Position numbers and translations under genes: made by a program
Assembly: GCF_007833275.1 (NCBI RefSeq)
Contig: NZ_CP042241.1
Span: 1,426,001 to 1,490,000, forward strand
Direction: 5' to 3'
Length of the DNA: 64,000 nucleotides
DNA from: Salarchaeum sp. JOR-1
Lineage (GTDB): Archaea; Halobacteriota; Halobacteria; Halobacteriales; Halobacteriaceae
Notes under the pieces: generated by a model
Told to the model about the DNA's origin: nothing
Databases searched by the model: none
The model's input: only the letters and a program-made list of their open reading frames with translations
Part shown: piece by piece, positions 24,222-48,385 of the stretch
How positions within the stretch are numbered: position 1 is the stretch's first letter
Layout of the letters: every line of letters begins with the position of its first letter

Positions 24222-24973
24222 ATCTCGTCCCCTCCCAGGTAGGCTTCCTGCACGGTCTCGTCGTTCCGTATCTCCTCGGGCGTTCCCTCCGCGATTTTCG
24301 CGCCGAACTGGATGACGATTGCGCGGTCGATGAGGGAGAGCAGGCCGCGCATGTTGTGGTCGACGACGACCAGCGTGATGCCCTCGTCGCGGAGGTCGGT
24401 GAGGAGGTCGCTTAGCTCCGTGACCTCGCCGCTCGACAAGCCCGCGAACGGTTCGTCGACCAGGAGGAGGTCGGGGTCGGTCGCGAGCGCACGCCCCAGT
24501 TCGAGGCGGAGCAGTCCGGCGTGCGGGAGTTCGTCCGGCGTCTGGTGGAGGCGGTCGCCGAGGCCGACGCGCTCGCAGAGTTCGCGTGCGCGCTCTTCGG
24601 TCTCCCCGCGGAGCCCGGAGAGCGAGAACAGCTTGTCGGGTGCGAGCGCGAGCGCGACGTTCCGGAGGACGGTTCGGTCGTCCAGCGGCTTGAACGACTG
24701 GAAGGTGCGCGCCATTCCGCGCTTCACCATCTCGTAGGCGGGTTCGCCGGTCACGTCCTCGCCGTGGTAGTGGACGCTCCCGCTCGTCGGTTCGTACGCG
24801 CCGGTGACGCAGTTGAACGTCGTGGACTTCCCCGCGCCGTTCGGGCCGATGAACCCGAGGATTTCTCCCGCCTCCACGACGAAGGAGAGGTCGTCCACGG
24901 CGGTGAGGCCGCCGAACTCCTTCCGGAGGTTGTTCAGGACGAGCAGGCCGTCGTCGGGCGCGTACTCAGTCAT
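24218..24973 (-). CDS. livG: ABC transporter ATP-binding protein, LivG family (operon 2)
   Basis: 251-residue ATPase. Seen: Walker [10 protein letters not shown] at 43-51, the LivG-style signature region [16 protein letters not shown], Walker [12 protein letters not shown] and the VVDHNM switch. The ATG at 24973 (MTEYAPDDG) is preferred to an in-frame GTG/ATG pair nine bases upstream. The gene overlaps the LivM stop by 8 nt. Confidence 0.9.
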
Positions 24974-26096
24974 CCCGACCACCCCGGAAGAACTCGCGGA
25001 ACCGCTCCAGCGTCTGCTCGACGGGCGTCCGGCCGCCGTCCGCGGCCGCGCCGTCCGCGCCGATGAGGCTGCGGCCCGTGACGATACCCCAGCGGAGCAC
25101 GCCGCCCGGGAGCGCGAACAGGATGAACAGGGTGACGACTGCGAAGATGACGAGGTCGAGGTCGCCGACGCTCACGCCGAGACCCGGAACGGTCGCGTTC
25201 ACGTTGCTGAGCTGGCTGCGGAAGACGCTGAGGAACATCCCGCCGAGCGCCGCGCCGACGATGGTTCCCATCCCGCCCAGCACGGACGCGATGATGACCT
25301 CGATGCTCACCGTCTGCGCGAGCAACTGACTCGGCGTCGGACTCGCCATCGGCGTGTGCACGAACACCGCGCCCGCGAGACCGCCGACGCTCGCGGACAG
25401 CACGAACGCGAACGTCTTGAACTTCGCCGGGTTCAGGCCGGACGCCGCGACGGCGTCCTCGTCCTCTCGGATCGCGGTGAGGATGGATCCGGCGTCCGAG
25501 CGCGTCACCGCGAGCAGCACGGCGAGTATCAGGACGAACAGCGCGAACCCGACGTAGAAGTACACGTACGTCTCCTGTGCGAACCCGCTGGTCGCCACGA
25601 GCGGGTCGGGGTTGGAGACGCCGAGTTCGCCGCCGAACACGTCGCTGCGCCAGATGAAAACCTGGAGCAGGATGAGCGGCGCGACCAGCGTCACGAGCGA
25701 CAGATAGGGGCCTTCGAGGCGGAGCGCGGGCACGCCGATGAGGAGGCCCGCGACCGCCGCGAGCACCGTGCCGAGCGCGACCGCGGCGACCGGCGGGACG
25801 CCCCAGCCGAGGTTCAACAGCGCGCTCCCGTAGCCGCCGATGGCGAAGAAGAGCGCGTGCCCGAAGCTTATCTGGCCCGTGTAGCCCGACACCGAATCCC
25901 AGCTCATCGCGAACATCCCGATGAACATCGCGATCGTGATCGTGCGGATGTGCAGGAGGCCCTGGTCGCCCGCGTACAGGAGCTCCATCCAGAACGGCGT
26001 GAGCCCCAGGAGCGCGAGCGCGAGCAGTCCCAGTTGTTGGCGGAGCGGGAGCGACAGCGGATTCAGCTTCGAAGTGAGTGTGTCCGACATCGTCAC
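24966..26096 (-). CDS. livM: ABC transporter permease, LivM family (operon 2)
   Basis: 376-residue permease with about nine or ten hydrophobic segments. Seen: [20 protein letters not shown] in the first third and [14 protein letters not shown] in the coupling region. The C-terminus extends about 40 charged residues past the last membrane span. A GTG start at 26096 overlaps the LivH stop as GTGA, like its counterpart in operon 1; an ATG two codons later is the alternative. Confidence 0.9.
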
Positions 26097-26956
26097 TCGG
26101 TGAATTCACGGCCGAACAGGCCTTCGGGTTTCGCGAGCAGTATCAGTACCAGTACCACCAGTGACGCCAGTCCGCTGAGCGAGGAATCGACGTACGACAT
26201 CGTGAACGTCTCGAGGAAGCCGATGATGTACGCGCCGATGACGCTCCCGCGGATGGAGCCGATGCCCCCGAGGACGACGATGCTGAACGACAGGACGAGC
26301 GGCGCACGTCCCATGCTCCAGGACGCGGTCTGAATCGACCCGAGGAAGAGGCCGGCGAGGCCGGCGAACGCGCCCGCGAGCACCCACGTGTAGAGGTACA
26401 TGCGGTCGCTTTCGATACCGACGAGGGACGCCCCCTTCGTCGACATGCTCGTCGCGAGGATGGCCTTCCCGGTCTTCGTGTAGTTGATGGCGAAGAACAG
26501 GAGGCCGATGATGACCCAGGAGAGCGCGAACACGAGGAGGCTGTTCGCCTGGATGCCGCCCGCGATGGAGACCTGTCCCGTCAGGAGGGAGGAGATGACC
26601 GCGGGCTGCGTGCCGAACCCTTGCTTGATGATCTCTTCGACGGCGATGGCGGTGACGAGCGTGAGAATCATCACCGTTATCGGGTCGTCCTCGACGCGCT
26701 GAATCATCCCCTTGTAGAGCGCCGCGCTGAACAGCCCGGGTACGAGGATGGCGGCGAGCGCGCCGACCCAGATGCTAAAGCCGAACACTTCCGAGGCGTA
26801 GTACGCGCTGAACGCGCCGATGGTGACGGTCGCGCCGTGCGCGAGGTTGAGGACGCCGCCCACCCCGAAGATGAGGGTGAAGCCGATGGCGACGAGCGCG
26901 TACAGCGCGCTCATCATCACGGCGTTCGCGACGACGTCGATCAGTGGCAGCGCCAT
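26093..26956 (-). CDS. livH: ABC transporter permease, LivH family (operon 2)
   Basis: 287-residue permease. Seen: [19 protein letters not shown] near the N-terminus and [14 protein letters not shown] near the C-terminus, with about eight hydrophobic segments. One base separates it from the binding-protein stop. It is the pore partner of the adjacent LivM. Confidence 0.9.
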
Positions 26957-26957
26957 C

Positions 26958-28322
26958 TTATACCCAGGGCGGACTCTCGTACTCGCCGGCTGCGAGGCTG
27001 TCCGGGTAGATGGTGGTCTGCTTGCCGCCGTCCCCGCTCTCGGTCGGCTTCCACTGGAGCCAGAGCGGACGGACGCCGTTCTCGCCGGTTCGGTCGTACA
27101 CGACGTCGTGCGGGTACTCCGCGTTCTTCCCGTAGTACCGAACCGTGCCGGCAGTTCCGGTGAAGCTCATGCTCTCCAGTTCGGCGACCACGTCGTCGGG
27201 GTTCCGAGACCCCGCGTTCTCGGCCGCGGCCGCGTAGTTCTTCACGGCGTCGTACGCGATGTAGCCCGTGTAGACGGGGTACTTTCCGACCATATCGTGG
27301 TACGCGTTCGCGTACGGAACCGTCTTCTCCGTGATTTCGGAGTTCGGCGTCGCGGTGTTCTGGGTGACGCCGTACGCGCACGCGCCGTTGACGAGCCCCC
27401 AGTAGGAGGGGAGCTGCATCGGCACGTGGATGCCGCCGAACGCGAACGGACGCTGCTGTTTCGCGTACTGGACGAGCGCCGTGCTTCCGGAGTGCGCCAT
27501 CGCGACGAACGCGGCGTCCGCGCCGGACGCCTCCACCTGGTCGTAGATGGTGGAGAAGTCCTTCGTTTCGCCCGAGTACCGCTTCATCCCCGCGACTTCG
27601 ACGCCGGCGTCCGCGAGCTGGTTCCGGAGGACTTCGTCCACGGGCTCGGTCCACGTGTAGTCCTCGGTGAGGACGTAGACGGAGTCCCAGCCCATGTCGG
27701 AGAAGTTCGCTTCCGCGAAGTCCACCATGTTCGCGCCGAGGAAGTGCGCGTTCACGGGGCCGGTTCGGAACCAGTACTTGTACTTCTCGTACTCGTCCTT
27801 CAGCATCGTGGAGGCCTCGGGCGTCGCTGCGCCCGCGGTCATGTGGACTTTCTGCTGGCCCGCGATGCTGTCCATGAGGTTGAGGAGAACCTCGCTCGTG
27901 AACACGCCGGTCGTGAAGTCGACGTTCTCGCTGACGGTGAGCTCCTCGTACTTCGTCTTCCCGCGCTGGGGCTGTTCGTTCGTCGTCTTCACGAACACCT
28001 CGACGTCGTTTCCGAGGACGCCGCCGTTCGCGTTCAGCTCCTCGGCGGCGAGCTCCGCGGAGCGCGCGATAGAGTTCCCGATCGGGTTCTCCGTGCCCGT
28101 GTGTGAGGTGAGGACGCCGACTTTGAACGTGCCGCTCGGCGCGTCACTGCTGCTGCCGCCGCCGAGACAGCCGGCGGACGCCGCGAGGCCGGCCGCACCC
28201 GTTCCCTTGAGGAACGTCCGCCGATCCGCACTCGCCCCTATAGCGCTAACGATGTTTCGTTCCCCCTCGACTTCGTTACCAGAACAACGCCCATTGTCGT
28301 TCTGACTACCTTCGTTAACCAT
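26958..28322 (-). CDS. ABC transporter substrate-binding lipoprotein, HAAT type (operon 2)
   Basis: 454-residue receptor. Seen: an N-terminal polar region, Tat motif DRRTFLKGTG at 33-42, lipobox ASAGC with Cys52, then a type I binding fold beginning FKVGVLTSHTGTENPIG. First gene of the second importer. The first codons and the bases before them match the receptor gene of operon 1 exactly (TACCAATGGTTAACGA), although the proteins have otherwise diverged, pointing to shared ancestry of promoter and start. Ligand unknown; an amino acid or a carboxylate are both possible. Confidence 0.9.
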   Translation of the reverse strand: MVNEGSQNDNGRCSGNEVEGERNIVSAIGASADRRTFLKGTGAAGLAASAGCLGGGSSSDAPSGTFKVGVLTSHTGTENPIGNSIARSAELAAEELNANGGVLGNDVEVFVKTTNEQPQRGKTKYEELTVSENVDFTTGVFTSEVLLNLMDSIAGQQKVHMTAGAATPEASTMLKDEYEKYKYWFRTGPVNAHFLGANMVDFAEANFSDMGWDSVYVLTEDYTWTEPVDEVLRNQLADAGVEVAGMKRYSGETKDFSTIYDQVEASGADAAFVAMAHSGSTALVQYAKQQRPFAFGGIHVPMQLPSYWGLVNGACAYGVTQNTATPNSEITEKTVPYANAYHDMVGKYPVYTGYIAYDAVKNYAAAAENAGSRNPDDVVAELESMSFTGTAGTVRYYGKNAEYPHDVVYDRTGENGVRPLWLQWKPTESGDGGKQTTIYPDSLAAGEYESPPWV

Positions 28323-28460: not shown

Positions 28461-28490
28461 GCGAATATATAAAAAATATTTATCTAAAAA
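28461..28490 (+). promoter_or_regulatory. Strong AT-rich promoter of the microgene
   Basis: A run of almost only A and T (GCGAATATATAAAAAATATT and the bases after it) in a region of otherwise very high GC. The TTTATCTA part (28479-28486) is about 26-33 nt before the ATG at 28512, the spacing of an archaeal TATA box for a leaderless mRNA. One of the most AT-rich stretches in the window. Confidence 0.65.
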
Positions 28491-28511
28491 TGGGTGATAT
28501 AAACGATTGCA

Positions 28512-28652
28512 ATGTCCGAAAGCAACCAGGGCAAGATCGCATCGTTCCTCACTGACAACCCCCGCATGATCGGCGTCCTCTTCACGATGACGCTCCTCCT
28601 CGCCCAGACGGGCGCCGTCTCCGCAAGCAACGTCGCCATCAACGGCCCCTAA
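28512..28652 (+). CDS. 46-residue hydrophobic microprotein (DUF7503-like)
   Basis: Short gene encoding a 46-aa peptide: polar N-terminus MSESNQGKIASFLTDNPR, then a hydrophobic stretch GVLFTMTLLLAQTGAVSA and a short tail ending NGP. It looks like a signal-anchored or membrane-inserting peptide with a possible AxA-type cleavage site. From memory it resembles the haloarchaeal DUF7503 microproteins; I could not check this. It has a strong AT-rich promoter, appears leaderless, and its TAA overlaps the stop of the convergent CHAT protease by four bases (CTAA). Possible roles are protease substrate, membrane effector or sensor; none is shown. Confidence 0.75.
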   Translation: MSESNQGKIASFLTDNPRMIGVLFTMTLLLAQTGAVSASNVAINGP

Positions 28653-30739
28653 TCCAACCGCGAGAAATCGAACGTATCGGCCCAGTGTAACGACCCGTCG
28701 AACCGAATCGGCGTTCTTCTGTCGACGAACTCCACCAGCTCCTCTACGCTCAGCGTGTACTCCAGCCCGTCCCTCACCGGCGCGAGGTAGTACATCGACT
28801 CGCTCCGTATCGTCGGCGCCATCATCGTCCCGAGATCGAACGACCGTGTCAGGAACGTCCGGTACGTGATATCCACGGTGCCGTCCCGCACGTCAGTAAT
28901 TTCAACGAGATCCGGGAGGTTCGACTCCGGCTGGACGATGCCGAGGCCGCCGTCGCCGATAGTGACGTACTGGCCGCCCGCGTAACTCTCGTTTCGCGCG
29001 GTTTCGAGCGCGACGTTCAGCGGGTACCCGACGTTCAGGAGGCGGGCGAGCGCCTTCCCCATCGTCACGGCCGCGTTGTTCAGCACGTCGCTCAGCGTGA
29101 CGATACCGCCGATTGCGCCCGCCTCGACGAGCTTCGCGCCGACCCGATACGAGGAACACGCGTTCAGGAAGAACGCGTCGACGCCCGTCGTCTCGATGCT
29201 GTCGAGCGCGAGTTTCCCGTCCGCGCACTCGATTCCCTCCTCGTCGATGTGCCCGATGTAGTGGAGGAAGTCCGTGTCCGCAGCCAGCACCTCGCGGAGT
29301 TCCGCCTGGGTGAGGTTCTCGTGCTGGCGCACGTCGAACGGGAGCTCGTCCCGCGACCCGTACACCGTGTTCGTCATGTCCCGCTCCTCTATCATATCCG
29401 TCTCGTTACATACTACGGTGATGCCGATGTCGCCGGGCGCGAGCGAGCGGTTCACGCGGTTCTCGTACGCCGCGACCATCGCTTTGCTCGCGCCGATCGG
29501 CGTCCCCTCGCCAGCCCACGTCTGCTCGACGGAGTCGGCCGCGGTCGGCCGGACGTACCGCCCGCCGTTCGTCCCGCCGTCCGTCGCGCGGTAGAACTCG
29601 CGAACCGACTCCGCCTGCTCGGTCGCGCTCGCGACGGCGTCGTCCGTCGGCGTCCGCACGACCGCGAGTTCGTCCACGAGGTAGGGAACGAGTTCGAGGT
29701 ACTCCGCGCTCGGCGTCACGTCCGCGGTGAGCTTCCACGTCGGACAGTACGGCTCCACGGACTCGAACGGCACCGAGAGGTAAGTGGCGAGTCGCTCCGT
29801 CGGCGACGCCGCGCGCGCCTCCGAGAACGAGATGTCGAGCGACGCTTCGAGGGCGGCGCGCTCGAACAGCGGCACCTCGTAGTACCCCTCTGTGCGGGCT
29901 ACACAGTCCAGTACGAACACTTGCTTCAGGGTGCGCGCGACTGTCGCCTCGTACCCGCCCTCGCGGTCGAGCGAGTACGTGAACCCGTCCGCCGTCCGAA
30001 TCTCGGGCGTCTCGCCGGGCACCAGTCGCGCGCCGAGGTAGTACGCGAGCGACACCGCCGGATAAATGTACTCGAAACGCGGCGGCACGGCCATCCGGAC
30101 GTCCGTCTCGGGGGCTTCCAGGCCCGGCGGAATCACGAGTTCGTCCCCGCGCTCCAGCCGCGGCGGGTGGCCGCGGAGCGTCGGGTACGACCGCGCGGGC
30201 TCCTGCGTCTTCAGCGCGTGCCCGAACGCGTTCACGGCCTCCATCACGTCCCGGGGGTCGTCGGTCGTCGTCACCGTCCCAGCCGGCGAGTCGTGGAACG
30301 ACCGCGCGCCGACCGCCACCCGCGTCTCGCGGTCGAACTCGATGACCGTGGTGTCCGCGTCCGACCGAACCGTCATCGGTCCCGACGCGCGGACGTAGAG
30401 CTTTATCGGGGCCGCGAGGTCGAGCACGTACTCGCCCGCGGGGAACTCCTCGAACGCGAAGTGGTCGGTCTGCGTGACGTGCGTCCCGTCGGCCTGCCGG
30501 ACGTGAACCGCGACCACCACCGGAAACGTGATCGCGTCCGTTCGGAACGAAACCGCCGCGTCGAGCGGCATCGGGAACCGGTCTTCGGCACCCTGCTCTC
30601 GGACGTTCTCCGCGTCGGTCTCGACGCGAATCCGCGTGCGAGCTATCGGGTCGTACACCGACAGCCCTCCGTGCGGGGGCGTGTCGATTCGCGCGCCGAT
30701 TCCGGCGGCGTCGAACGTATCCCCGGTTCGCTCCTCCAT
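28649..30739 (-). CDS. CHAT-fold (caspase-like) cysteine protease with haloarchaeal N-terminal module
   Basis: 696-residue protein. The C-terminal part carries the CHAT dyad: His497 in FLHYIGHIDEEG and Cys528 in AFFLNACSSYRVG, followed by GAIGGIVTLSDVLNN, the usual strand after the Cys. CHAT peptidases are caspase relatives (separase, gasdermin-activating proteases). The first 330 or so residues form a beta-rich module not known to me, containing RVAVGARS and YPTLRGHPP, that is shared with the protein at 46436-48385. The ATG at 30739 is preferred to a TTG ten codons upstream. An accessory gene lies 45 nt upstream and the microgene is convergent. No membrane span or signal seen, so it is probably cytoplasmic. 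Confidence 0.85.
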   Translation of the reverse strand: MEERTGDTFDAAGIGARIDTPPHGGLSVYDPIARTRIRVETDAENVREQGAEDRFPMPLDAAVSFRTDAITFPVVVAVHVRQADGTHVTQTDHFAFEEFPAGEYVLDLAAPIKLYVRASGPMTVRSDADTTVIEFDRETRVAVGARSFHDSPAGTVTTTDDPRDVMEAVNAFGHALKTQEPARSYPTLRGHPPRLERGDELVIPPGLEAPETDVRMAVPPRFEYIYPAVSLAYYLGARLVPGETPEIRTADGFTYSLDREGGYEATVARTLKQVFVLDCVARTEGYYEVPLFERAALEASLDISFSEARAASPTERLATYLSVPFESVEPYCPTWKLTADVTPSAEYLELVPYLVDELAVVRTPTDDAVASATEQAESVREFYRATDGGTNGGRYVRPTAADSVEQTWAGEGTPIGASKAMVAAYENRVNRSLAPGDIGITVVCNETDMIEERDMTNTVYGSRDELPFDVRQHENLTQAELREVLAADTDFLHYIGHIDEEGIECADGKLALDSIETTGVDAFFLNACSSYRVGAKLVEAGAIGGIVTLSDVLNNAAVTMGKALARLLNVGYPLNVALETARNESYAGGQYVTIGDGGLGIVQPESNLPDLVEITDVRDGTVDITYRTFLTRSFDLGTMMAPTIRSESMYYLAPVRDGLEYTLSVEELVEFVDRRTPIRFDGSLHWADTFDFSRLD

Positions 30740-30784
30740 ACGAATCGCCTTACGCGGCGAACCCGTCAAAAGAGTGTTGTCGTC

Positions 30785-31459
30785 TCAGGCGTCGAGAGAA
30801 ACCCACTCAGAGACCACGTTCTCGTCCCGGAGACTCCAGCGCTGTTCCACGCTGTCGGTCACGCGGAGTTCGACGACGGCGTCGAACAGCGGTTCGAGCA
30901 GGCGGACGTGCCGGTTCTCGCGTGGTTGCGGGAGGCGGAAGTGCGCCATTCCGCGCTCCCGGCGGACGCGCTCGGAGAGCAGGTCGACGGTGCGGAACGT
31001 CTGGAACTCGCCCGCGGTGTCGAGGAGGGGCTGGAGGGTGTCGACGCCGAGGCGGAGTTCGCCCGGTTCGAACGCGCCGTCGAACGCGTCGATGCGGTCG
31101 AGAACCGCGCGGCCGAGCGCGTTCGCGTCACCGGCGGGGACGTGCTCGTGGGGCGTCACCGGCGGCGTGACGCTCGCCGACGCGACGGCAGTGCGGGCGT
31201 TCGTGCCGTGCGTGATGACGGTGTCGCTGTCGCCACAGCGCGTTTCTCCGACGCGCGTGGGGAGCGTGCTGCCGGCGCTACTGCCGACCACGAGCACGCG
31301 CTGCCTGGGGGCGTGATCGCCGTCACCGAACATTCGGCGGGACGCGCGGGCGTACGCCTCTCCGGGGACGTCCCCGACGACGAGGAGTGAACTCCCCTCC
31401 TCCTTCAGCCGTTCGAGGATCTCCTCGAACTCCCCGTCCGTTCGCCCCGCTCTATACAT
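30785..31459 (-). CDS. DUF7504-like accessory protein of the CHAT locus
   Basis: 224-residue acidic protein with a RecA/KaiC-like secondary-structure feel but no Walker A lysine: it opens EEILERLKEEGSSLLVVGDV, then RVLVVGSSAG and a domain ending in a winged-helix-like or strand-rich tail. It recalls the haloarchaeal DUF7504 family (memory only). The ATG at 31459 is preferred to an in-frame GTG at 31474 because a TATA box (GTTTATTT, 31484-31491 minus) lies about 28 nt before the ATG, which would make the transcript leaderless. Placed directly upstream of the protease, it may sense or regulate it (inference). Confidence 0.65.
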   Translation of the reverse strand: MYRAGRTDGEFEEILERLKEEGSSLLVVGDVPGEAYARASRRMFGDGDHAPRQRVLVVGSSAGSTLPTRVGETRCGDSDTVITHGTNARTAVASASVTPPVTPHEHVPAGDANALGRAVLDRIDAFDGAFEPGELRLGVDTLQPLLDTAGEFQTFRTVDLLSERVRRERGMAHFRLPQPRENRHVRLLEPLFDAVVELRVTDSVEQRWSLRDENVVSEWVSLDA

Positions 31460-31483
31460 CGGATAAGACGTCACAGTGACAGC

Positions 31484-31491
31484 AAATAAAC
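31484..31491 (-). promoter_or_regulatory. TATA box of the CHAT-locus operon
   Basis: GTTTATTT on the minus strand, centred about 28 nt before the ATG at 31459. It lies in the short gap after the stop of the TPP enzyme gene, giving the accessory and protease genes their own start of transcription. Confidence 0.55.
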
Positions 31492-46394: not shown

Positions 46395-46435
46395 AGACGA
46401 CACGCTCAAACCATTCGGCATCCTGACTGAACGCG

Positions 46436-48385
46436 ATGACCTCCCGAGACGTCTCCTCACTCGTCTCGTTCTCCCTCGACGCCGACACCGGCGAACTCAC
46501 CATAAGCGACGACCTCGCCGGGCTCTCCTTCTCGGTCACCCTCGCCGACCCGGGAACGCTCACGGCCGCGCCGCAGTCGCTCCTGTTTCCCGTCGATGAC
46601 GCCGTGGCGCTCACGACCGACGAACTCGTGATTCCGCCAGACGCGAACGCCCGCCTCCGCGACGAGACCGGTGAGTACCGCGGCGAATTCTCCACGACGC
46701 CCCGTGAGATCCCCGAGGGAACCCACTACATCGAACTCGGCCGAATCGTGAAGACGTACGTCGTCCTCCCGCGAACGTCCGCGACCGCCGGGTACGACGC
46801 GCCCCACGCGGACGGCGGGTCGCTCCGCGTGTCGTTCCCCGAGCGCACTCGCGTCGTCGTCGGCGCGCGCTCCAGGCACAACCGCCCGCACGCCACTATC
46901 ACCGTGCCGGACGACCCGCGCGCGCTCATGTCCGCCGTCGGCGCGCTCGGCGCGTCCGTGAAGGAGTGGTCGGCCGAGCGGTCGTGGCCGACGCTCCGCG
47001 GCCACCCGCCCGCCATCGAACGCGGGGACGAACTCGCGATTCCCGACGGCCTTTCCGTGCCGGACACCGGCGTTACAATCACCGTCCCGGAGACGTACGC
47101 GGACGTGTATCGGATCGCGCCGCTCGCGTTCTACCTCGGCGCGACCGTCGAACCCGGCGAGCCCGCCATCCGCCTCGACAACGGCTATACGCACGCCCTC
47201 AGCCGCCCGCTCGAACCCGCTGTCGACCGCGCGCTTGCGCGCTGTCTCCTCCTCGACACGCTCGTGCGAACGAACGGCTACTACTCCTTCCCCCGGTACG
47301 AGTACGACGAAATCGCCGCCGCCCTCCCGTTCTACCCGCCGAAACTCTACGACCGCCCGATACCCGACCAACTCCTTGAGTACTTCGAGGTGTCCTGGGA
47401 GACGCTCGCACCCGTCGTCCCGCGGTGGCCCGCGACCGCCGTTCTCGCCCCGTCAATCGAGGACGCCCCCCTCCTCCCGCACGCCCTGAACGGCCTCTGG
47501 CGCGTCCGCATCGACGACAGCGCTCCCACGCCGTCGCCGACCATCGCCACCATGGCGACGCGCGGTTCGCCGGACGCCGACACCGGCCGCCTCGTCCGCG
47601 AGGCGTTCGACCCCGAGCGGGTCGAGAGCCGAGCGACGCCCGACACCGCCACCGTAGCCGTCGCCACCGACGACCCCGACCGCGCCGCCGCCTTCCGCAA
47701 CCGCCTCGACACGACCGCCCTCGACCCAGACAACGTCACCGTTGGCCGCCCCGGGGCGTCCGTTCCCACCGCCGTCGACCTCTACTACGACGACACCCGA
47801 GACGGAACCGCGACCCCTGCCCGCGGAGACGAACCGACAGTCGCGGTCACCACCGGGGACGCGGCGGGTGACACCGCGCTCGAACTCGTCCGCGCGCGCT
47901 CGGTCGCGGCGCTCGCGCTCCCCGACCGCCCCGCAACCGACGTGGCGACCGGCACACTCGAACTGCTCGCGGACGGCCATCCCCCCGCGAGCGTCGCCGA
48001 CTACGGCGAAGTCAATGACGCTGTGGTTGTCGGCCGTCCGAACTATACGCCGGTTGTTCAGCCGGCCGGCTACGTTCCGGCGGTTGGGCTAGTCGATTCT
48101 CAAAGCACAACAGAGCACATACTACGATACCGTGTCAATCCGTCCGACGACCGGCCCCTGGGCGGGAGCACTCGAAATACAGACGATTTTTCGGCCGAGG
48201 TCTACCGCCTTACGGGAGTCGACTTCCGCGAACCCGGCGTGTATTCGACTGACGAAATCGTAGATGTCGCGAACCGCGACCACCACGCCTGCTGGATCAA
48301 CAGCCAACTGGTCTATCCCTCGGAGACGGTCACAGCGTCGATGGTTCGGAAGTCCGCCAGGAACGCGCTCCAGGATTCGGCCTAG
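46436..48385 (+). CDS. CHAT-protease paralogue without catalytic residues
   Basis: 649-residue protein homologous over its length to the CHAT protease at 28649-30739. Shared: RVVVGARS (about 140-146), SWPTLRGHPP (183-192), FYLGATVEPGE, TNGYYSFPRYE, and the C-terminal VVQPAGYVPAV...YRV block. The region matching the protease dyad has no HYIGH and no NACSS equivalent; instead DLYYDDTRDGTA and VTTGDAAGDTALE are found. I infer a pseudoprotease that may act as receptor, decoy or regulator. The last 350 bases are visibly less GC-rich. No microgene sits beside it. Only 41 nt separate it from the LysE gene. Confidence 0.75.
   Translation: MTSRDVSSLVSFSLDADTGELTISDDLAGLSFSVTLADPGTLTAAPQSLLFPVDDAVALTTDELVIPPDANARLRDETGEYRGEFSTTPREIPEGTHYIELGRIVKTYVVLPRTSATAGYDAPHADGGSLRVSFPERTRVVVGARSRHNRPHATITVPDDPRALMSAVGALGASVKEWSAERSWPTLRGHPPAIERGDELAIPDGLSVPDTGVTITVPETYADVYRIAPLAFYLGATVEPGEPAIRLDNGYTHALSRPLEPAVDRALARCLLLDTLVRTNGYYSFPRYEYDEIAAALPFYPPKLYDRPIPDQLLEYFEVSWETLAPVVPRWPATAVLAPSIEDAPLLPHALNGLWRVRIDDSAPTPSPTIATMATRGSPDADTGRLVREAFDPERVESRATPDTATVAVATDDPDRAAAFRNRLDTTALDPDNVTVGRPGASVPTAVDLYYDDTRDGTATPARGDEPTVAVTTGDAAGDTALELVRARSVAALALPDRPATDVATGTLELLADGHPPASVADYGEVNDAVVVGRPNYTPVVQPAGYVPAVGLVDSQSTTEHILRYRVNPSDDRPLGGSTRNTDDFSAEVYRLTGVDFREPGVYSTDEIVDVANRDHHACWINSQLVYPSETVTASMVRKSARNALQDSA

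Follow-up and report, generated by a model that had tools for sequence, protein, structure and literature searches.

A window of 64,000 nucleotides from Salarchaeum sp. JOR-1 (contig NZ_CP042241.1, positions 1,426,001 to 1,490,000; the window is the whole stretch of DNA analysed) contains a DUF7503 microgene encoding 46 amino acids (aa) and, tail to tail with it, the gene of a divergent CHAT-family cysteine protease. These two genes are the constant members of a locus conserved across the haloarchaea, and we favour, tentatively, the reading that they constitute a peptide precursor and its receptor protease, working in the manner of Rap-Phr or PlcR-PapR but unrelated to them. An earlier note on this DNA had described a hydrophobic 46-aa microgene, a 696-aa protease and a 224-aa upstream accessory gene. 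All three are present, the accessory gene being a DUF7504 member and the first two being convergent with bases 28649-28652 common to their 3' ends (a 4-bp overlap). The protease length is counted from an ATG and becomes 706 aa if an upstream TTG is the start. DUF7503 and DUF7504 are Pfam families lacking an assigned function. The NCBIfam search gave no match for the microprotein, the protease or the DUF7504 protein, and no paper naming DUF7503 or DUF7504 was found in the open-access literature.

The distribution of the pair was surveyed in 394 genomes of the class, and a second scan of named genomes was evaluated on its best 80 loci. DUF7503 is found in 337 of the 394 genomes (86%), mostly as one copy, and the protease in 368; by these counts the protease is also present in every genome with DUF7503 (337/337), and there are no DUF7503-only genomes. 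Out of 159 distinct microgenes, 158 lie tail to tail with a CHAT gene. The gap from stop to stop has a median of 4 bp and reaches 225 bp, with 27 overlapping pairs and a majority that do not overlap. In loci L002-L101 every microgene is tail to tail with CHAT, and the extra copies in multi-copy genomes each have a CHAT gene of their own. The named-genome loci, from Haloferax, Haloarcula, Halorussus, Halococcus, Haloplanus and others, have nearly all the same layout, and the DUF7503 family is present in Haloferax volcanii too. The earlier note had proposed a conserved module and had named the lack of any conserved association of its genes as the ground for abandoning it; for protease and microprotein the association is conserved, and its class-wide extent rules out a chance neighbourhood. 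Chance neighbours, or a convergent layout which itself matters through antisense control by overlapping 3' ends, would account for the tail-to-tail arrangement and the 27 overlaps. This explanation is hardly credible given selection on the microgene at the protein level (see below), the majority of pairs without overlap, gaps of up to 225 bp and the class-wide association.

Inspection of the 31 protease-only genomes showed that six in genus g44 and two in g74 hold diverged microgenes which are below the reach of the Pfam model. Genomes G109, G124 and G348 likewise carry microgenes unrecognised by the model, and most of the remaining protease-only genomes contain just CHAT-B paralogues without microgene. 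The view of the protease-only genomes as exceptions to the pairing was rejected on these observations. Variants of the layout include one microgene flanked by a CHAT gene on both sides (L073, L053 and L058), which suggests either one microprotein serving two proteases or a duplication underway, a pair of DUF7503 genes in direct tandem next to a single CHAT gene (L081/L091 in G011), and copies of the pair on plasmids in Halorussus aquaticus and Haladaptatus halobius (L134, L210).

The protease carries the catalytic dyad that the earlier note had read as intact. His497 and Cys528 are invariant across 54 aligned protease sequences, and the His-Cys dyad is found in 182 of 182 CHAT sequences from loci bearing a microgene. 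The Pfam CHAT model (PF12770) scores 15.5 bits, below its cut-off of 24; by dyad and modelled fold the protein is assigned to clan CD, but as a divergent CHAT family whose proteolytic activity is predicted. The AlphaFold model (predicted local distance difference test, pLDDT, 88.7) comprises a beta-rich N-terminal region, a middle alpha/beta part, a caspase-like domain and a C-terminal beta region. Foldseek matches are to separase, gingipain R and K, SAVED-CHAT and TPR-CHAT proteins (E 1e-8 to 1e-5). Since whole-chain template modelling (TM) scores are low, at 0.2-0.3, the structural match is limited to the catalytic half of the chain. CHAT paralogues without the dyad (46427-48382 of the window, L221, L222 and L228) have no microgene at all. 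CHAT-B paralogues whose dyad is intact are mostly without one as well, which places the microgene in one branch of the protease family and its satellites. The paralogue within the window (46427-48382, plus strand) is 37% identical to the N-terminal half of the protease over its first ~360 residues and has lost the catalytic domain; its open reading frame runs up to a convergent gene of SDR type, lacks a microgene and matches no Pfam family above the threshold. A further CHAT paralogue of the same genome outside the window (L233, G000:C2:2196703-2198376) is 35% identical and has no microgene.

The microprotein family, 41-48 aa in most members, follows the motif [YF]Lxx[HN]P[RK]MxG[VA]LFTxxLLL[ST]QAGx[VA]AA, after which come 7-10 residues, mostly ending in GP. 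Column counts show the motif before the core to be invariant, with P, R/K and M/L each in 147 of 147 sequences. The hydrophobic core has no charged residue and carries conserved G, T, Q and G positions, and a helix-breaking Gly stands near the predicted cleavage position. Position -1 is Ala or Gly in all 147 microproteins and position -3 is Val or Ala in 139 of them, rarely G, T, S or I. The -1 and -3 residues, the R/K and the hydrophobic core fit a signal peptide with a signal-peptidase site, and secretion of the microprotein by Sec is likely on these sequence features. The invariant R/K was considered as proof of a cleavage site and dropped, since a signal peptide would be expected to have this charge in its n-region.

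The tail is of a different character. It ends in GP in 143 of 155 cases (92%) and is diverse, with 132 distinct sequences among 146. Haloarchaeal proteomes are acidic, and the charge of the tail is near zero (D/E 0.7%, K/R 1.1%). The ratio of nonsynonymous to synonymous polymorphism (pN/pS), calculated from 162 pairs, is 0.16 for the core, 0.37 for the tail and 0.47 for the N-terminal part; the microgene is under purifying selection. Across 155 regions upstream of microgenes the A+T content rises to ~0.9 at -38..-28, a peak which probably marks the microgene promoter and fits a TATA box with a short leader. A shadow or chance open reading frame was rejected on the evidence of selection, the promoter and synteny. 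In addition to the TATA region, the ordinary and the repeat-type microgenes of one family (L003, L007, L132, L149-L173, L102-L107) share an upstream element resembling CAGATAT/CAGAACT...CGAAAA, which may be a regulator site.

The earlier note had suggested a protease-triggered membrane or stress module with the microprotein as substrate, trigger or effector. In this explanation the microprotein is anchored in the membrane and is cut by CHAT, for instance after the invariant Arg/Lys, whereupon either the hydrophobic piece acts on the membrane or a signal is ended by the cleavage. The high conservation of the core speaks for it, as do the position of the R/K directly before the core and the Foldseek matches to the Arg/Lys-specific gingipains and the Arg-specific separases. 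The R/K is, however, equally explained as n-region charge, and in Haloplanus and Halococcus the core is missing, several of the proteins there being also without an equivalent basic residue. A membrane-anchored substrate or effector is thus unlikely. The core-less forms, together with a conserved anatomy that corresponds to a cleavable signal peptide followed by a short tail without charge, make a membrane effector less likely than a tail peptide acting as CHAT ligand or substrate; a role of the microprotein as substrate or trigger is possible.

In the Haloplanus-type form, seen in six g44 genomes and in the named Haloplanus loci L141 and L146, the microgene site is kept and the hydrophobic core is gone. 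The g44 site is syntenic, lying between DUF7504-CHAT and a HalX-type regulator. The protein encoded there begins with MSxxDSGT and continues with repeats such as (YTADGNGGGISGP)n. The 39-bp array units are 83-97% identical and are present in 6.7, 9.7 and 13 copies in three genomes and in two copies in L141; each unit closes with SGP. A sister genome has the ordinary form with the tail end GNSGAISGP. Two Halococcus species have a different core-less form ending in ACTYSGP. In the protease tree the core-less types of Haloplanus and Halococcus nest among the ordinary forms, with some supports moderate. The tail, as the element retained while the rest changes, is probably the functional part. Open reading frames of 160-233 aa, convergent and of the microgene type, are found at L111 (G109) and L127/L212 (G124), with tails of ~20-50 residues which still end in GP and of which one has cysteines and a Trp-containing stretch; these may be a distinct subtype with a longer peptide.

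Duplication gives a second view of the tail. G124 and G348 have about ten CHAT paralogues each, most with their own convergent microgene, and the hydrophobic parts of these microgenes are related while their tails are very different; about ten such pairs with diverged tails occur in one genus. A tail which is kept, amplified in arrays and diverging as the pairs multiply, next to a partner whose active site is kept, behaves like a peptide ligand with its receptor, and the precursor is built like the signalling propeptides of Gram-positive bacteria. In the mechanism we favour, the microprotein would be a pre-peptide in which a specialised Sec-type signal sequence bears a 7-10-residue uncharged tail ending in GP. 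Signal peptidase would free the tail outside the cell, and the tail would re-enter, or act before export, to bind its own cytosolic CHAT protease. The bound tail would set the activity of CHAT, whose output would then act on cell targets; DUF7504 may link the pair to haloarchaeal signalling, as may a HalX response regulator in part of the genomes. Observed are the pairing, the intact dyad, the signal-like anatomy, the tail-only variants with their tandem arrays and the duplication of pairs with diverging tails; that the tail is exported, re-enters and binds, and which way control runs, we infer. An intracellular route would have to serve the core-less forms, and ComS, which acts without export (PMC6211226), is the precedent for it. 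A wider picture of archaeal cell-to-cell peptide communication with a caspase/separase-like protease as receptor, in which most haloarchaea would secrete xxxxxxGP peptides of 7-10 residues, one genus would have about ten private channels and Haloplanus would use an intracellular short circuit with tandem arrays, is possible but more doubtful.

Several observations weigh against a peptide and receptor. The core is under tighter constraint than the tail (0.16 against 0.37), more than a plain tag for export would call for; this strong core conservation is the main unexplained point and hints at a dedicated partner, be it a membrane component or one of export. Tails without GP make up 12 of 155 (~8%) and are spread over at least three clades, so that a C-terminal GP was dropped as an obligatory feature. 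The core-less forms lack the Sec route, so that export is not essential in those lineages. No tetratricopeptide repeat (TPR) or recognised peptide-binding domain was found in the protease by Pfam, the model or Foldseek, and the model shows no helical repeat array. Among the neighbourhoods examined no peptide importer is a constant neighbour. Finally, many CHAT-B paralogues have an intact dyad and are mostly without microgene.

In the chief alternative the microprotein would inhibit CHAT as a pseudosubstrate or belong to it as a regulatory subunit, as securin does with separase or calpastatin with calpain. The tail would plug the active site, the repeats would be multi-site inhibitors and release of the inhibitor would free the protease. 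Separase, which with gingipain has the closest fold, is itself under the control of a partner bound to it; the pairing is strict, microgenes being found only with dyad-intact CHAT, and the tail-only and repeat forms would suit soluble inhibitors. The signal-sequence anatomy of the common form, on the other hand, puts the tail outside the cell and away from a cytosolic protease, enzyme and inhibitor are usually co-transcribed and not convergent as here, and 132 distinct tails among 146 would face one conserved active site, unless GP alone matters. We consider an inhibitor somewhat unlikely. The arrays allow yet another explanation, in which CHAT is the maturation protease which releases the tails, cutting behind Gly-Pro in the arrays, while the receptor is another protein. 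The SGP which closes each array unit, as if cut there, and the presence of microgenes only beside dyad-intact CHAT agree with it. Such a cut would be superfluous in most forms, whose last residues are GP already, and no other constant receptor gene was found at the locus among the neighbourhoods examined, so that this explanation appears quite improbable.

Coordinates of the locus in the window (.. denotes first and last base)
Feature	Position	Strand	Description	Basis
DUF7503 microgene	28512..28652 (stop counted)	+	46 aa, MSESNQGKIASFLTDNPRMIGVLFTMTLLLAQTGAVSASNVAINGP	Pfam PF24335, E 2.3e-17
Layout of the microgene	28512..28652	+	N-terminal region, then hydrophobic signal-like core, then tail SNVAINGP	
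Microprotein N-terminal region	28512..28568	+	MSESNQGKIASFLTDNPRM, closed by P-[RK]-[ML]	Column counts, 147 sequences
Hydrophobic core and putative cleavage region	28569..28625	+	IGVLFTMTLLLAQTGAVSA, like the h-/c-region of a signal peptide	Column statistics
Predicted mature tail	28626..28649	+	SNVAINGP, C-terminal Gly-Pro	Tail length in the family and GP ending
Putative promoter region of the microgene	28461..28511	+	tatataaaaaatatttatctaaaaatgg, A+T-rich in a GC-rich host genome	Sequence; A+T profile of relatives
CHAT/separase-like cysteine protease	28649..30739	-	696 aa, His497 and Cys528	Alignments, AlphaFold model, Foldseek
DUF7504 gene	30785..31459	-	224 aa, predicted inactivated KaiC/RecA-like domain, upstream of the protease	Pfam PF24336, E 1.3e-47

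The third gene of the locus has another status. DUF7504 is present in all 394 genomes in 1-9 copies; it is a direct neighbour at 17 of 40 loci in one set and at ~37 of 80 in the named-genome set. Co-occurrence of three families, as put forward in the earlier note, did not hold: a three-gene module is rejected because DUF7504 is universal, multicopy and missing beside most CHAT genes, and it is an optional neighbour of the pair, not a constant member. Its fold is KaiC-like, with structural matches to KaiC and PH0250 (E ~1e-6). The Walker A loop reads VGDVPGEAY, with the lysine-threonine motif GKT missing, and on sequence and model the protein is probably an inactivated KaiC/RecA-like form. Inactivated KaiC-like domains are known from archaeal signalling (PMC5847659). 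At several loci a HalX response regulator is found behind the microgene; the DUF7504 and HalX neighbours suggest a tie of the locus to signalling, neither being constant. Divergent from the microgene, at 24966-28322 (minus strand), is an ATP-binding cassette (ABC) transporter of the branched-chain amino acid type, with two permeases and a substrate-binding protein carrying a twin-arginine translocation (Tat) signal, which is not a constant neighbour elsewhere. In general the neighbours of the pair are varied housekeeping genes.

A protease-peptide pair is thus kept in 86% of the sampled haloarchaeal genomes, and neither Pfam nor the open literature searched assigns it a function. Should the tail be a signal, this would be, as far as the searched open-access literature shows, the first peptide signalling system in archaea, and one that employs a caspase relative. 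Extracts of H. volcanii have very strong caspase-like activity, though archaeal genomes are said to lack clear caspase homologues (PMC3615174); the CHAT protease is a gene-level candidate for this activity, which we offer as a link and not as evidence.

Among known systems, the bacterial CHAT-gasdermin loci resemble the haloarchaeal pair in that a CHAT-family protease lies beside a small partner gene. They differ in the partner, which here is a 46-aa DUF7503 protein without gasdermin fold and with a core dispensable in two lineages, and in the patchy distribution typical of defence, as opposed to near-universal presence on the chromosome. The PADLOC models gave no match to defence proteins for the microprotein, the protease or the DUF7504 protein, and no relatives were found in viral contigs. 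On these two results and a distribution that is not patchy a defence module was rejected; the defence role suggested in the earlier note found no positive evidence, the pair being near-universal, mostly single-copy and set among housekeeping genes. The TPR-CHAT protease of Csx29/Csx30 (Craspase) and SAVED-CHAT share the CHAT catalytic fold, but the haloarchaeal pair has no TPR, SAVED or CRISPR genes and an unrelated partner. On the tests made, the module is not gasdermin, Craspase or a known anti-phage system. Eukaryotic separase-securin is alike in that separase catalytic domains are among the best structural matches of the protease and that a small partner may control it; the archaeal protease differs by its beta-rich N-terminal region, and no relation of microprotein and securin is apparent, none having been sought.

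The closest likeness in organisation is to the RRNPP/RRNPPA systems of Gram-positive bacteria (Rap-Phr, PlcR-PapR, ComR-ComS), where a precursor of 40-50 residues, with a short tail at the C-terminus behind a signal-like part, is encoded adjacent to a large soluble partner. There too the pairs duplicate within a genome and precursors with repeated tails are known (PMC11343458, PMC10075063), Phr propeptides carrying up to 8 pheromone copies (PMC11343458). The criteria used for RRNPP are a propeptide of 10-100 aa (validated 21-50), Sec secretion, a receptor of 250-500 aa, TPR and direct adjacency (PMC10075063). The haloarchaeal pair agrees in propeptide size (41-48 aa in most) and adjacency (158/159), and its column statistics indicate signal-peptide anatomy, except in the Haloplanus and Halococcus forms, which are without it. 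The proposed receptor, at 696 aa, is larger and has no TPR, so that the pair stands outside the RRNPP systems, even should its mode of action resemble theirs. Further differences are the nature of the partner (a caspase-like protease of ~700 aa), the convergent genes, the archaeal host, an almost uncharged tail with C-terminal Gly-Pro and a signal-like part better conserved than the tail. We call the module new because it fails the membership tests of all known systems considered, the comparison being based on the open-access literature, beside which subscription or preprint work may exist; what we call new is the complete module, and the fold of the protease and the names of both DUFs are already known.

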